Shown here piece by piece: positions 1 through 5,670 of a stretch of 5,670 nucleotides of DNA (position 1 is its first letter; each line of letters starts with the position of its first letter). Source of the stretch: a bacterium (GTDB lineage: Bacteria > T1Sed10-126); assembly GCA_003557545.1 (NCBI GenBank), contig PWOD01000149.1, positions 1 through 5,670 of the forward strand. The letters are read 5' to 3'. Position numbers and translations under genes: made by a program. The notes under the pieces were generated by a model. That model did no database searches, was not told the DNA's origin, and worked only from the letters and a program-made list of their open reading frames with translations.

Positions 1-3000
1 CAAGATTACCTAAAACTTCTGCTTTTTTAGCTGACTTGGGGAATATGAAGTCTATTCCATTCTCCATAGCAGACCATATAAAGTCCAGCATATTATCATT
101 ATTTTGATAATCTGAAGGAAGTAGAAACGCAATAGCAGTTTTAGTAATTTGTTTCTTACCAGAATACTTAATCTCAGCATTCTCAAAGCCACCTACTGAG
201 ATAGGTTTTTTAATAGAGAATGGAGCTAGTTGATCAAAAGTAAGTCTCTCTCCGTTGTAGAACATTCTTCCTCTGAAATTTACTGTATCAGAAGGAAGAT
301 GGTCTTTGAAGAGTTCTCTGTATTGATCTTCAGTAATTTTACCCCTCTCTAAGAACTTCTGGAACAATAACTGAGACTCATATTGCCAAGTTCTTTCCTG
401 GGTTTCTCCCCAAGCACCTGTAGTTCTTAGAATATAACTTCTAAATCCATCAAGAGTAGCCCAACCAGCAGCGTCATTTTCAGTTTGCTTTTTGTAAGCT
501 TCGGCTTTATCTCCTATAAACTCTTCATATTGTTTTTGTAATTCGGGTGTCAGAGCTACATCAACATCTCTAAACACTATATCTCTATAATAATGTTTAT
601 GAGAGAAGTCTTGCTCGAAGAAAGAGTTATCCAACCTGGGATACTCTTGGTTCAACATTTGGATATAAGCAGGGTCGTTACTAGAATGCCCCGCAGTTGA
701 AGTAATAGAGTTAGTTCTTTTATGTAAGTCAGAGGTAAATGTACCGTCTTCCTGAGCCTTCAGATAGGTGTTAATAGGACCAGTAAAGAGCTTAGTTTGC
801 TCAATAGCTGAGGTTACATAATAAAAGTTAATTGTATCTAACAAACTATTTAGCGTATCGTTGCTAATAGTAGTCGTTTTATCTCCCTTTTGTTTCTTAT
901 AAGCTAGTCCAAGAGAATCTAAAGTCTGAGGTGAAATTGCGTTATTAGTATATATCCCAGTCTTAGGGTTTTTAAGTTCAACTAGCCTGGCTTGAGTATA
1001 TTTAGCTTTTAAAGAATTTCTAAGATTTGTTACATACTCAGTTAAAACAGCGTCAATAGCTTCTCTGTTGTCAGCTATTAATTCATTTGCTCTCTCTATA
1101 TAGTCTTCTTTGGCTACATCAGAAATGGCTTGAAGATCTCTCTTCAGTTCTGGTGGAGCAAGATCTTTAAAGAAATTAAGCTCTTTATTAATATCTCCAG
1201 TTACAAACCTTCTATACTCAGGATTGGATCTCATAGCTAGAGAATACAGAACTTCGGCTTGTAGGTAGTCTCTAAGTTCTGCTATCATTTGTTCTGGCTC
1301 AATAACAGAAACATAGTCTTTTCCGAAGTTAAACCCTACTTCGAGCTTTCTTTCAGCAGACCTTAGAAATGGGAATATACCATTTAATATAGCTTCAGCG
1401 TGCAGAACCTGATAATCTCCAGGCTTGAGCTTATTGAAACTCTCTTTCTCCCCTCTTTCTTTCCCTGCAGATCGAAGAATACTTTTAGTAATTCCTCTCT
1501 GAGGAAGCCATTTAGAACCATAAGTAAGATAATTGCCTCTTTCTCCATCAAAGGGTTTAAGATGGTCAGGTAGAGTGTCTGTATTAATCTGGTCTATAAC
1601 TTTATCAATATGGTGTTTTAGTCTAAGAGAGTATTCAAACCTACCATCCTCGTTTCTGTACTGCCCATCAAATACAAAATCTTCATATTCTGCTTGCTTA
1701 TTAGCAAGTTCCCTGATTTCTTTATTAAACTTAAAGACATTTCTGTTGAAGATGTCGTCAGAGAATATACCTACGTCTTTTTTAGTCAACTCTTTTATTG
1801 TCTTGTGAACTGTTTCTACAGCCTTAGTAAGACTTTCTGGAGCTGATACATTAGGATCAAGAGTGATCCCAAAGTGTCGGAGATACTCTTTGTATATTCC
1901 TAAGTTAGAGGCTCTTGGGTCCCCTGCTTTATTAAGACTAGTCTGAGCTTCTCTAATATCGTTAAGTGTCCAGTCTCTGAGTCTCTTAGTGGTATCTCCT
2001 AGTGTCATATTATTACTAGGATTTAATCTATATCTACCTTGATACAACTCAAAGACTCTCCCACTATACGGATCAACATTAGAGATATTACTTTTCCAAG
2101 TAGCTGTGATCTTATTCTGAATAGTAGAAGCGATAGACTCTACTAAGTAACTCTCCCCTTCTGGACCATATACTAGCGTAGTATACTGACTCTCAGCTTT
2201 ACTAAACTGGTTTTCAAAAGCTTTTTGTAGCCTAAGTTCCTCTTTTGTCAGAGTTTCGGGTCGGAGATTGTCAGAACGGGTGTTAAGTCTGTTTAGAATT
2301 TCCCCATAAATAGGAACTCTATCTCTCTTAGATTCTAAAACTTCTACCATCTGTTGAAAGTTGGTAGTGTTTTTCAAGTCTTGGTGTAGTCTACCAATAA
2401 CTTTACTATAATCTGTGGTTTGTGGTAATCCCCCTACAGTTATCAGACTTCCATCACTAGCTCTTTCACTAATAGAAGCTAGAAAGAGCTTAAGAGGGAT
2501 TTCAACTTGCTCTTTGGGATCAATCAAGTTAGACTCGAACCAATTAGAAGTATTTTTGCCTCTATCTTCAGCTACTCTAAGATCTTCAGTTTGGTCTATC
2601 TCTAGGTTGTATTGAGTTAAGAACACTCTATGAGCTTGTACAGTCTCGTCCCAGTTGTTAAGAATTTGTTCTAAAATCTCAAAAGTTTCTCCACGAGCTT
2701 TAAATTCTTCTACCTTTTTAGTAAAGACTTCTTTAGCTCGTTTGTAGAGAATAGGAAGCTGAGCCTTAAAATTATAGAGAGACTGGGCTCCTCCCTCTAG
2801 TTGAGCATTTTTAAACGCTGTAGTAAAGATCTGAAAGTTCAGACCTCTTACCATAGCATCAGAAGTTCCTTGATCTAGATTTCCAATCCTATTGACACTT
2901 ACAGATTCTAAAGCATCTAGTTTAGCTACTTCAAAATTACCTTCACTAATTTCATTGAAAGTATTAATAATGACCTGAGGATCTCCTGCAGCTTCTTTTT

Positions 3001-5670
3001 TGTTAATACGCTTCCCAAAATATCTGCCAATGAAACTAACAATAGCGTCCCACATTCTAGCAAATATATTTTTCCTCTGAGTAGCTTGACCTGGGAATTT
3101 ATAATTATCTTTTCCAACAAGCATATACAACCTAAACTGCTCAGCTAAATATTCTTCTGCTTGTTTATCGGTAAGCTTATCGCCCTGAACGGTCTCTCCG
3201 TCTATTCTGACAGATCTATCTTTTAAAAGTCTTCTAGTCTCATCATATAAACTAGTTCTGTCTGCAGTAGAGTTAAATAATAAGTTATAGGCGTGGAAAG
3301 CTTCGTGATAAAGAACTCCTGGAGTACTAGTATCTGGATTAACTAAAACTCTTGCATATCCCCCAACAGTAGTAAATCTACCGTCCTTACCCTTCATAGC
3401 CTGTACTCCTACAGGATATACAGGAAGGTCTGGGAACATTTTTCTAAATCTAGCATATTCTGCAGAGAAGTTAACAGGCTCTCCTACTACTTCTGCACTA
3501 TCTGAGGTTATAGTAAAAGTCCAGGACTCGTCCCCAGTACCTCCTACTTCGTCTGTATGTTCCTCTTTTCCAAGATTATTGAGTTTCTTAGCGTCTTGTA
3601 CTCTAGTCTCGGTCTGTTGCTTCTCAATCTGCTTATTTCTCCCCTCTTCTACCTCTTTTCTAGCCTCTCTAGCTGCCTCAGCACTAGACATCTTCTTCCC
3701 CTGCCTCTCAGCAGCGTCTTGTTGAGCTTCTTTCGCTTGTTGAGCTGTACTAGTAACGACAATCCCATAATCTTGAGGAGTGGAGTGGGGTATATCTTGA
3801 TAATGAGCTGGAGGCTGCTCCTGAGTCTGTTTAGCTTCTTGTTTAGTAGTTTCAGCAGTGCTCTGCTTATGCATCTGTTGTTGAGCTGCTGGCTGGTTGC
3901 CCAACATCTTGTTTATATTATCTAGAGCTTCTTTTTTAGTAGTAGCTTGTGTAGTTCCTTCAGAAGCAGTTGCTCTTTCTTCTGTAGAATCAGCAAGTTT
4001 ATATCTAAACGCTCTATTATGTCTAGAAGGATTTTGTAGTCCGTCTACACCGTCTCTGTATTCTGGTAAAGGAAACTTAAGTTTAGGAGTATTATCTTTA
4101 CTACTAAGAAGAAAATCTTTATAATCTGATCTCTTTCTAGTAGTTAATTCAACATCTACTATCTTACCTTCTTTATCAAAGATAGGCTCAGCTTTATCTA
4201 CATCAACAAACTTATTAGTCTCTAGTCTTTTAGTATCTACTTGATAAAACTTGTTCCTAAGAAACTCTTCTAGTTTTCCTGTATCGTTATTTAAGAGAGC
4301 TTCTTTAGTAATAAATTGATCTCCAAAAACTACACTACTAAAGTCATCAGGGACATAGAATCTACTAAATTTCTCGTAGCCTTTAGTTTTATGAACACTA
4401 GGATTAGTAAAAAAGGTATAAGTATTGATTAGTTCGTGAGCTTTTCTTCTAGCAGAGTCTGTTCCATGTAGTAACATATACTGTAAAGCTGTTACTACTT
4501 TTTTTATATCTGCTTGAGCTAGGGTCTGAATATCAGGAGCTACTAGCATTCCCTGATGATTAGCGTATATAAAGCCTGGTTTAACTTGATATACAGAATT
4601 TCCTACAGTTATTTGTTCTCCCGTAGGAACCATAATACTGATGTCTTTTGCTTTAGTACCTGGAGGAAAAGCTTCTTCTAATGTAGTAGCTTTCTCAGGA
4701 CTTATATACTGTCCCTTATGATCTGTGGGAGCTACCCCAGGAGTAACTCCAGTAATTGCAAGAGTTACAGGAGAGTCAGACTCTATTATTTTTTTACGAA
4801 TAGTTTCGTCAAACTCTTTCTGCTTCGCATTAATAGTCTCTTCATTATATCCCTTAGGATCAACAATTCTATCTCCCCTAACTCCTACATTTCTGTAAGT
4901 TCCGTCTTCACGCATCATATCTCTCATATAAGCAAACGGAACTACTTTTCTATCAGATTGGTAATAAGAGTCCAACAACACAGGTTCCCCCTGAGCATCA
5001 GACAGTACTAAGTAAACAGAGTAATCTTTTCTATGAGACTTCCTAACTTCTTCCATTTGCTCTGCGGTAAGTACGTCCTTAAACGCAGTTTCGAACTGGT
5101 TGAAAGTATAAGCCTTAAGAGTTTGTCTACTCTTTGGTGTCCACTTATTTATAGCCTCAGCAAATCTAAGCTGATGCTCATAAAATTGAGGAGCTCGTAT
5201 AAACTCCTGTTGTCTCATACTAGTTCTTGCAAAACTAAAGATAGACCCTGCGAAGGGTTCCATAGGAGGTAAATGGAGCCTATCGCTTCTAGAAACTTCT
5301 TCGTAGGTTTCTTGTTTAGCTACGTCTGTAGCTGTTCCTTCGGGAGGGGCTTCTACTTTAGTTTCTTCTCTAGTGCCTCTTATTAACTTTTTGTAGCTAT
5401 TAATAATCCTCTGATACTGCTTACCAGTTTGGTTAGTCTCATTCATAGCTTCCCTAATAGCTTCCATTTGTTCGGGAATCTTATCAAGAGAGCTTTGAGC
5501 AAGATCTATCTCGGTCTGAATTCCCTCCATCCCCTCTCTTAGTCTTGACTTGAGATTAGATATTTCCCCAGCAATCCTATTTCTCTCATTGATTAATGCT
5601 GCCTGACTCTCAAACTCTGAAAGCTCAAGATTATCTTCAGCATCCATCAACTCATCATAAAGTCTTTTAA
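1..5670 (-). CDS. Interior fragment of a giant multi-domain phage protein with a zincin-like metallopeptidase domain (partial at both ends)
   Basis: One frame is open across the whole minus strand: complete codons run from + 5668 down to 2, giving 1889 residues without TAA, TAG or TGA. No start can be chosen. The frame is already open at the right edge, and the first internal Met codons (residues 8 and 47) lie inside a continuous coiled coil with no convincing ribosome binding site, so the protein probably starts upstream. Seen in order: coiled coil, unassigned region, low-complexity linker, HExxH peptidase domain, amphipathic helix, long helical region, and a C-terminal block cut by the window edge. 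No signal peptide or clear transmembrane segment is visible. Known of the class: crAss-like and other large tailed phages encode proteins of 1500-5000 residues, some carrying zincin-like peptidase or virion RNA polymerase domains. Inferred role: a virion-packaged, ejected multi-domain protein. No DFDxD-type RNA polymerase motif is present here; the DVD strings at about residues 500 and 1685 are not in that form. Coding status is near certain and the function is tentative. Alternatives are a prophage or conjugative-element polyvalent protein. Confidence 0.95.
2..844 (-). other. C-terminal module resembling giant-protein blocks of crAss-like phages (residues 1609 onward, cut by the window edge)
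   Basis: Landmarks in order: a helix ending in SAIEQTKLFTG (Gly1630) followed by SDLHKRTNSITSTAG; YYRDIVFRDVDVALTPELQ (near 1685); NDAAGWATLDGFRSYI (1731-1746), then GAWGE; IKKPISVGG (about 1819-1825); a hydrophobic strand into FLLPSDYQ (about 1848-1855); and GIDFIFPKSAKKAEVLG (1871-1887) at the edge. The series 'xxTKLFTG..., VFxDV..., DAxGWxTLDxxR...GxW, KPxxxG, LLPxxY, IDxxxFxSAxKxG' matches my memory of a module found in giant proteins of crAss-like and related phages, some of them linked to the virion RNA polymerase. No catalytic Asp triad is visible here, so RNA polymerase activity cannot be claimed for this window. Confidence 0.45.
845..2983 (-). other. Long mainly helical region, unassigned (about residues 896-1608)
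   Basis: Most of this stretch reads as helix rich in Glu, Lys, Asn, Leu and Phe with short loops, for example LYKRAKEVFTKKVEEFKARG and LTKAVETVHKTIKELTKK, separated by beta-like or loop pieces such as DGSLITVGGLPQTT and EDFVFDGQYRNEDGRF. It contains the block at 1140-1195 described separately. I see no enzyme motif. It may be structural or connect the peptidase to the C-terminal module, and I do not recognise a named family. Confidence 0.4.
2084..2251 (-). other. Possible conserved block in the helical region (residues 1140-1195)
   Basis: The segment runs from LTKEELRLQKAFENQFSKAE through a short hydrophobic strand (YTTLVYGPEG) to IQNKITATWKSNI. An 'AFxxxFSKAxxxY ... strand ... helix ending in a Trp' pattern resembles blocks I recall from other giant proteins of crAss-like and related phages, lying between the peptidase and the C-terminal module. 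The recollection is not backed by an alignment. Confidence 0.35.
3005..3067 (-). other. Amphipathic aromatic helix after the peptidase core (residues 868-888)
   Basis: IFARMWDAIVSFIGRYFGKR shows Ile, Met, Trp, Val, Phe, Ile and Tyr on one face and Arg, Asp, Ser, Arg and Lys on the other, followed by a basic INKKE. It is too charged for a standard membrane span. It may close the peptidase domain or bind a membrane or partner. It is followed by a Gly/Asp break (AAGDP) that probably ends the domain. Confidence 0.5.
3140..3157 (-). other. Candidate third zinc-ligand helix (EEYLAE)
   Basis: Residues 838-843 read EEYLAE and are followed by QFRLYML, an amphipathic helix 46 residues after the second motif His. 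In gluzincin-type peptidases a Glu from an ExxA/E-like helix completes the zinc site, so Glu839 or Glu843 is the likely ligand. Which one cannot be decided from sequence alone. Confidence 0.55.
3293..3307 (-). other. HExxH zinc-binding motif (HEAFH)
   Basis: The five codons CAC GAA GCT TTC CAC on the minus strand encode His788-Glu-Ala-Phe-His792. The motif lies in the expected context, with a hydrophobic GVLY before it and AYNLL after it forming an amphipathic active-site helix. The reading frame was confirmed by position. Confidence 0.85.
3527..3991 (-). other. Low-complexity Gln/Ala/Thr/Lys/Glu linker with a long charged helix (about residues 560-714)
   Basis: Composition changes sharply after ADSTEERATASEGTTQATT. 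The first half is Gln-, Thr- and Ala-rich with scattered Pro and His (NQPAAQQQMHKQSTAETT, TQEQPPAHYQDIPHSTPQ) and is probably disordered. The second half, about 641-695, is an almost unbroken run of Ala, Gln, Glu, Lys and Arg (AQQAKEAQQDAAERQGKK, then AEAAREARKEVEEGRNK), predicted as a long single helix or coiled coil. It ends in an acidic Gly-rich stretch (EEHTDEVGGTGDESW). It joins the N-terminal region to the peptidase domain and could act as a flexible tether or be exposed to proteolysis. The opposite strand shows apparent hydrophobic frames here only because Gln, Glu, Ala and Thr codons read backwards as Leu, Phe and Ser. Confidence 0.7.
4004..5269 (-). other. Unrecognised mixed alpha/beta region (about residues 134-555)
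   Basis: This stretch begins at PPMEPFAGSIF and ends just before the low-complexity linker. It reads as ordinary folded protein with many aromatic residues and alternating beta-like strings such as YSVYLVLSDAQGEPVLLDSY, PVTLAITGVTP and SVYQVKPGFIYA, then helical strings such as ADIKKVVTALQYMLLHG. The last pattern could be a small beta-rich domain followed by a helical bundle. I see no catalytic motif and do not recognise a family. The domain limits are estimates from composition only. Confidence 0.45.
5384..5668 (-). other. Coiled-coil segment at the N-terminal side of the giant protein (residues 1-95)
   Basis: The segment is rich in Glu, Lys, Arg, Gln and Leu/Ile with hydrophobic residues at roughly heptad spacing, for example INERNRIAGEISNLKSRLRE and later MEAIREAMNE. 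It has no proline except one near IPEQ, about residue 65, which may break it into two helices. It ends at LIRGTREET, after which a Pro/Thr/Glu-rich stretch of about 35 residues leads to the next folded region, beginning near LPPMEPF (about 133-139). Such segments usually give oligomerisation or an extended spacer. The segment probably continues beyond the right edge. Confidence 0.6.

Follow-up and report, generated by a model that had tools for sequence, protein, structure and literature searches.

Residual cysteines of the crAss-like phage virion cargo lie at protein termini and are paired across gene junctions

The stretch of DNA examined here, referred to as the window, is the entire 5,670-base contig PWOD01000149.1 (C163) of a 239-contig bin (GCA_003557545.1, T1Sed10-126), and it raises the question of why a very long protein would contain no cysteine. 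One stop-free open reading frame (ORF) of 1889 codons, open at both ends, occupies its minus strand from 5668 to 2. Machine translation and a codon count found neither TGT nor TGC in this single frame, in agreement with the manual reading in the initial annotation, which had also judged the absence to be beyond chance. This judgement held, as approximately 22 cysteine codons would be expected from codon-position-specific base composition alone, and the chance of finding none in 1889 residues is ~8e-5 at 0.5% cysteine and 7e-14 at 1.59%, the level of crAss-like replication genes. Since the contig stops inside the gene, which overruns both contig ends, the full protein length is unreadable from the window. 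Homology indicates that the window encodes the zincin-to-RNA-polymerase middle of a crAss-like virion cargo giant. We consider it likely that such cargo proteins are coupled end to end by disulfides between terminal cysteines, which would be reduced in the new host, and that fused forms, including the window, dispense with cysteine.

A tblastn search of 50,697 phage records returned a single significant relative, a 4774-residue protein of crAss-like phage cr50_1 (gp_05258; E = 3e-8). Up to an E value of 10, crAss-like or unclassified uncultured phage genomes made up 54 of the 55 records, none was from the Schitoviridae, and homology to the T7-like polymerase of N4 was not found; nearly all matches fell on window residues ~770–950, in giant proteins of the 'RNA polymerase subunit' type. 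A profile scan built from the conserved zincin alignment then gave 80 IMG/VR loci with giants. By blastp, window residues 739–1888 aligned with residues 1986–3137 of the giant of one such locus, L048 (E = 1e-78). The giants of L051, L059, L078 and other loci also align along the window, whose lineage represents a divergent fused form (~25–31% identity). Window HEAFH (residue 788) aligns with HEAFH, HEAWH or HEAYH in crAss-like giants, followed by EExLAExFR, and gp47-like proteins have their C-terminus 147–241 residues past HEAFH. The catalytic DFDxD lies at residue 3424 of the L048 giant and is expected ~290 residues past the window contig end. The homologous chain, with an HExxH zincin ahead of the polymerase as in the window, is gp47/gp50/gp49 in crAss001 and includes the virion RNA polymerase of phi14:2, gp077, the catalytic RNA polymerase of PDB 6VR4; these chain proteins are virion proteins by mass spectrometry and are thought to be ejected partly unfolded. 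In phi14:2 the chain reads gp078-gp077-gp076, and the crAss001 masses are 262.5 kDa for gp47, 276.9 kDa for gp50 and 154.5 kDa for gp49 (PMC10172136), ~694 kDa together. The laboratory hosts of crAss001 and phi14:2 are Bacteroides intestinalis APC919/174 and Cellulophaga baltica #14, respectively. The p-crAssphage (Carjivirus) homologue is annotated as 'RNAP associated protein fused to zincin protease'. The expected gene neighbourhood of the cargo chain (muzzle, C1, C2) and other crAss-like genes would lie outside the window contig, which is a fragment of one gene. Pfam and PHROGs gave only weak matches to the window, mostly in low-complexity parts. Short-pattern scans with the whole window against viral and genome collections found no relative, the patterns derived from low-complexity sequence being poor, and a scan with a Carjivirus fragment likewise found none.

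In an alignment of 26 zincin-domain sequences, the two histidines and the glutamate of HExxH were invariant in all 26. An AlphaFold2 model of the domain had a mean pLDDT of 78.7, with ~90 in the core. Foldseek against the PDB gave no significant match to this model, and NCBIfam gave no match to the domain; zincin folds (IrrE, PPEP, lethal factor and ArdC) were the top VIA rows among the Foldseek candidates, with Z up to 7.1. The domain combines an HExxH helix and a downstream glutamate with a predicted zincin fold, and peptidase activity is putative.

Muzzle and cargo genes are neighbours in one operon, are of similar length and both encode virion proteins; ejection is presumed for the cargo alone (PMC10172136). 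Pooled over 13 crAss-like loci, cysteine made up 1.09% of the muzzle (199/18299) and 1.59% of replication-gene products (346/21736), against 0.022% of C1 (2/9021), 0.013% of C2 (1/7855) and 0.138% of the giants (111/80503). Cysteine depletion therefore follows ejection, not virion membership (0.01–0.14% in cargo, with 0.05–0.14% for the giants, against 1.09% in the external muzzle). Full-length homologues of the window protein, 2000–5428 residues long, carry 0–5 cysteines each, so normal content does not resume outside the matching part, and the relatives are not cysteine-poor genome-wide (1.28% in ORFs of cr50_1 below 700 residues, 1.33% for crAss001 and 0.92% for phi14:2).

Ejected proteins of other phages behave similarly. 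The N4 virion RNA polymerase (vRNAP), described as cysteine-free in the initial annotation, is indeed so by direct count (0 of 3500 residues); T7 gp15 and gp16 contain none in 2065 residues and P22 gp7, gp16 and gp20 none in 1309, against 0.6–0.8% in non-ejected T7 and P22 virion proteins. N4 gp51 (644 residues) and gp52 (150 residues), which adjoin vRNAP, also lack cysteine (L028 15127-17524). As a giant ejected cysteine-free RNA polymerase, the vRNAP of the Schitoviridae resembles the crAss-like cargo, but it is an unrelated T7-like polymerase in which no terminal cysteines or coupled partners are seen. T7 gp14/15/16 and P22 gp7/16/20 are likewise ejected and nearly cysteine-free, yet they are without terminal pairs and form envelope channels rather than a polymerase chain. 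The proposal that missing cysteine supports a virion-ejected role was thus upheld by the crAss-like homology and by these ejection proteins, although not as a stand-alone argument. Two InlB-repeat/GLUG surface-type proteins on bin contig C20 (L009 2-6385 and 6551-12451) are nearly as poor, with 4 cysteines in 2135 residues and 1 in 1966. Cysteine poverty thus also marks what are likely exported bacterial proteins; since it is not diagnostic of ejection alone, the identification of the window as cargo rests on homology.

The cysteines that do remain in the 80 giants lie almost solely at the extreme ends, at residue ~3–5 from the start or within the last 1–5 residues. In reference genomes, gp47-like proteins have a C-terminal cysteine only, the gp50-like polymerase has one at both ends and gp49-like proteins have an N-terminal one only, while C1 and C2 mostly have none. 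In the Suoliviridae, where gp47 and gp50 are fused, the pair occurs only at the remaining junction. We scored 160 adjacent gene pairs from 66 non-redundant IMG/VR loci for cysteine within 10 residues of the facing termini. Cysteine was present on both sides in 83 pairs, on neither side in 76 and on one side in a single pair, from L052, whose C-terminal cysteine is at -13, just beyond the 10-residue limit. All 83 junctions had exactly one cysteine per side, at position 3–6 of the N-terminus and -1 to -9 of the C-terminus. Interior cysteine in the 66 loci amounted to 48 in 338,986 residues, or 0.014%. When pairs with identical terminal hexamers were discarded, 73 pairs had both, 73 had neither and 1 was discordant, and shuffling of partners never gave concordance above 100 of 147. 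In control genes below 900 residues, N- and C-terminal cysteines occurred at 4.0% and 9.0%, respectively, and their pairing was not significant (241/6/18/2; p = 0.11). At the outer, unjoined ends of the chain, no cysteine occurred within ~10 residues in the reference genomes (0/19 N-termini and 0/18 C-termini).

The pairing does not depend on the genes sharing a strand. In crAss001, cr128_1, L129, L130 and DAC17, gp47 lies on the strand opposite gp50/gp49 and the cysteine pair is still present. Five genomes added after the rule had been formed obeyed it at 6 of 6 junctions, including in Intestiviridae, in which it is the polymerase and gp49 that form a single protein; crAss002 agrees on the assumption that its gene starts 32 codons downstream of the annotated position. 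The annotated start of crAss002 gp33 (L132 11243-23980) hides the cysteine, whereas an internal ATG gives MSC as in Carjivirus gp44, and the annotated start is, judging from the sequence, probably 32 codons too early. The long gap ahead of this gene contains a hairpin-like, terminator-like stretch.

Rearrangements of the chain follow the same pattern. In L048 the whole chain is one 5420-residue protein, with gp49-like pieces mapping to residues 4530–4711, and has no terminal cysteine. L110 and L124 split a piece that is fused in L100, and the pair is present in the split form only. An extra 583-residue member with both couplers occurs in L093 and L111; their close relative L102 is without it, and the C-terminus of the L102 giant consists of the final 26 residues of the extra member, cysteine included. 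A homologous extra member is found in L056 and is missing from L091. Three breaks within the chain lack cysteine and do not look like ordinary gene splits. The break in L047 reads as a frameshift (the frames overlap by 25 nucleotides and the protein alignment is continuous) and that in L080 as a single in-frame TAA. In L120, an intron-like insertion of ~0.9 kb (14513-15400) with its own four-cysteine ORF interrupts the catalytic motif precisely after DFD and before ID. As Rfam gave no intron family at its gathering threshold for this insertion, the intron reading depends on the flanking protein being exactly continuous.

These patterns suggest how the cargo might travel. The chain of gp47-like (zincin), gp50-like (virion RNA polymerase) and gp49-like proteins, ~5400–6200 residues in total, would be carried inside the virion and leave by way of a tail with constrictions of less than 50 Å (PMC10172136). 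With interior cysteines purged, the polypeptides could be unfolded, threaded and folded again free of disulfide scrambling. Where members are separately encoded, the C-terminal cysteine of the upstream protein would pair with the N-terminal cysteine (~residue 3–6) of the downstream one as an intermolecular disulfide, and joining head to tail in chain order would let the proteins exit the capsid as a single thread without branches. Since the cysteines lie so close to the termini, the resulting chain would be linear and unbranched, as tail threading would need. Gene fusion joins the members covalently, so fused forms such as the window would need no cysteine. In the newly infected cell, the reducing cytoplasm would then uncouple the chain and free the polymerase subunits. 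The homology of the window, the cysteine depletion, the junction rule, its indifference to strand and the disappearance of couplers in fused chains are read directly from sequence; disulfide formation, the order of threading and reduction after entry are our inferences. Disulfides are known from crAss001 virions, in the tail and portal-vertex proteins (PMC10172136). For the Crassvirales as a whole, it seems fairly likely that the virion RNA polymerase is ejected as a redox-coupled train, held in fixed order by terminal-cysteine disulfides and uncoupled by the host cytoplasm, in which evolution may add or remove members, divide them or fuse them if the joints keep their pairs. Thioredoxin-like proteins are annotated in the early region of several crAss-like phages (L133 11057-12324, L136 34142-34417, L031 35117-35362); a role for them in uncoupling the cargo disulfides is conceivable. 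Concatemers of the von Willebrand factor type are large proteins joined end to end by disulfides, like the proposed cargo train; these differ in being homotypic and secretory rather than an ordered chain of different proteins uncoupled after translocation.

Several observations count against coupling of this kind. Cryo-electron microscopy did not resolve the cargo giants (PMC10172136), and no disulfide linking one cargo protein to another has been seen. The loci are related, so the 83 junctions are not 83 independent events; clustering the loci by zincin domain at 50% identity gives 35 groups, and the junctions cover many lineages and several distinct split sites. Exclusion of cysteine is not absolute, as Intestiviridae polymerases retain several interior cysteines (Carjivirus gp44 has 8, including the terminal one). 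C1-type proteins of Carjivirus, crAss002 and Rudgehvirus have a single C-terminal cysteine with a partnerless next gene, and an Fpv3 protein (L135 9913-11709) has an N-terminal cysteine without a neighbouring partner. The window itself holds neither protein terminus, so any couplers of its chain would lie outside it; the paired-terminal rule was examined in relatives, and the window supplies the cysteine-free interior only. The partnerless cysteines of these C1-type proteins of Intestiviridae stand at -2, -8 and -11 (L133 35141-37714, L132 548-2221 and L136 8852-11125, respectively).

What else could place cysteines in this way? The terminal pairs might staple the assembled polymerase complex, through a disulfide or a shared metal site, for virion stability. 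This is the main rival to end-to-end coupling; the fusions show that chain ends can be neighbours in the fold, and virion disulfides elsewhere stabilise assemblies. A staple could occupy any surface, yet the cysteines sit 1–9 residues from the very ends, which gives an unbranched chain, and extra chain members are inserted with both couplers; we therefore regard stapling as unlikely. The initial annotation favoured a simpler idea, that thiols are harmful in transit, and mere avoidance of cysteine in proteins crossing an oxidising envelope is already published for N4-like phages and Zobellviridae; on this view the terminal residues of the crAss-like cargo would have no coupling role. The wholly cysteine-free N4 gp50–52, T7 gp15/gp16 and P22 gp7/gp16/gp20 agree with avoidance. 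The avoidance is, however, incomplete in the crAss-like cargo, which keeps terminal cysteines in matched pairs across junctions; since avoidance does not predict cysteines placed exactly at the ends, paired across junctions and missing where an end is free or genes are fused, it is a poor candidate for the whole explanation.

An effect at the nucleotide level, in which an overlapping start and stop, a promoter or a recoding signal creates cysteine codons on either side of a junction, would fit the mostly short gaps, many of them -1 or -4. The gaps of the 83 pairs range from -13 to +68 nucleotides, however, and C1/C2 junctions with equally short gaps have no cysteine. Moreover, crAss001 gp47 and gp50 carry the pair on opposite strands ~12 kb apart, and since opposite-strand genes keep it, nucleotide-overlap explanations are removed; the idea is refuted for those junctions and very improbable overall. 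Equally hard to credit is that the window encodes a cysteine-poor surface protein of the bacterium. The contig falls in the bin of a 2.15-Mb bacterial genome whose large surface-type proteins are likewise cysteine-poor, but more than 1000 residues are collinear with crAss-like cargo giants, no similar protein was found in 58 other genomes searched, and its GC content is 37% against 43–53% in most sampled contigs of the bin. A search of the bin for further phage pieces (the cr50_1 terminase and both ends of the L048 giant) matched only the window itself. Three further candidates were rejected: intein trans-splicing, as cysteines 1–9 residues from the ends leave no space for intein halves; native chemical ligation, as the N-terminal cysteine is at residue 3–6 and not 1; and a terminal degron or modification at either end, as the free outer ends have no cysteine.

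Table 1. Features of the window, in nucleotide coordinates of the 5,670-base contig (aa, residues of the window translation).
Feature	Coordinates	Strand	Basis
Cargo-giant interior ORF, 1889 aa, 0 Cys, open at both ends; ~residues 1250-3137 of the 5420-aa L048 homologue	2..5668	-	Frame and blastp
Low-complexity linker rich in Q/E/K/T/A, aa ~560-710, preceding the zincin domain	3539..3991	-	Translation; chance-like Pfam matches here
Predicted zincin-type metallopeptidase domain core, aa ~728-870	3059..3487	-	26-sequence alignment, AlphaFold2, fold comparison
HEAFH (HExxH zinc-binding motif), aa 788-792	3293..3307	-	H, E, H invariant in 26/26
EExLAExFR motif, aa 838-846; Glu is candidate third zinc ligand	3131..3157	-	E112, A115, E116, F118 of aligned segment invariant
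Site where the Steigviridae gp47-like gene ends with a C-terminal Cys, aa ~935-1029; window frame unbroken and Cys-free (fused form)	2582..2866	-	gp47-like ends and continuous frame
RNA-polymerase half, N-terminal part, aa ~1030-1889	2..2581	-	Alignment to L048, L051, L078

An antisense ORF of 122 residues on the plus strand (3557-3925) faces the low-complexity linker and is most likely spurious. In several crAss-like loci (L032, L034-L036, L039 and L042), late virion and cargo genes contain in-frame TAG at high density, whereas the replication genes on the opposite strand rarely do, in line with the TAG recoding published for the group.

Cysteine depletion and its rationale were already published for the N4-like phages, including the cysteine-free vRNAP (PMC2784036, PMC3715699, PMC3915230), and a cysteine-free giant has been published in the Zobellviridae (PMC10747016). 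New here is that the remaining cargo cysteines of crAss-like phages are terminal and follow a junction rule. Reports on the structure, genomics and biology of the Crassvirales (PMC10172136, PMC7886860, PMC10136315) mention neither depletion nor paired terminal cysteines; this comparison excludes most subscription papers, including that on the phi14:2 polymerase, so an earlier report is possible. For annotation, terminal cysteines mark the true gene ends of the cargo chain, as in exposing the probable start-site error of crAss002. The rule concerns the most abundant phages of the human gut and makes coupling cheaply testable, and it addresses the open question of how megadalton-scale cargo passes through a narrow phage tail in order and in equal copy number. 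If true, coupling by terminal cysteines would be a natural case of different proteins being linked covalently, and reversibly, into a chain for translocation.
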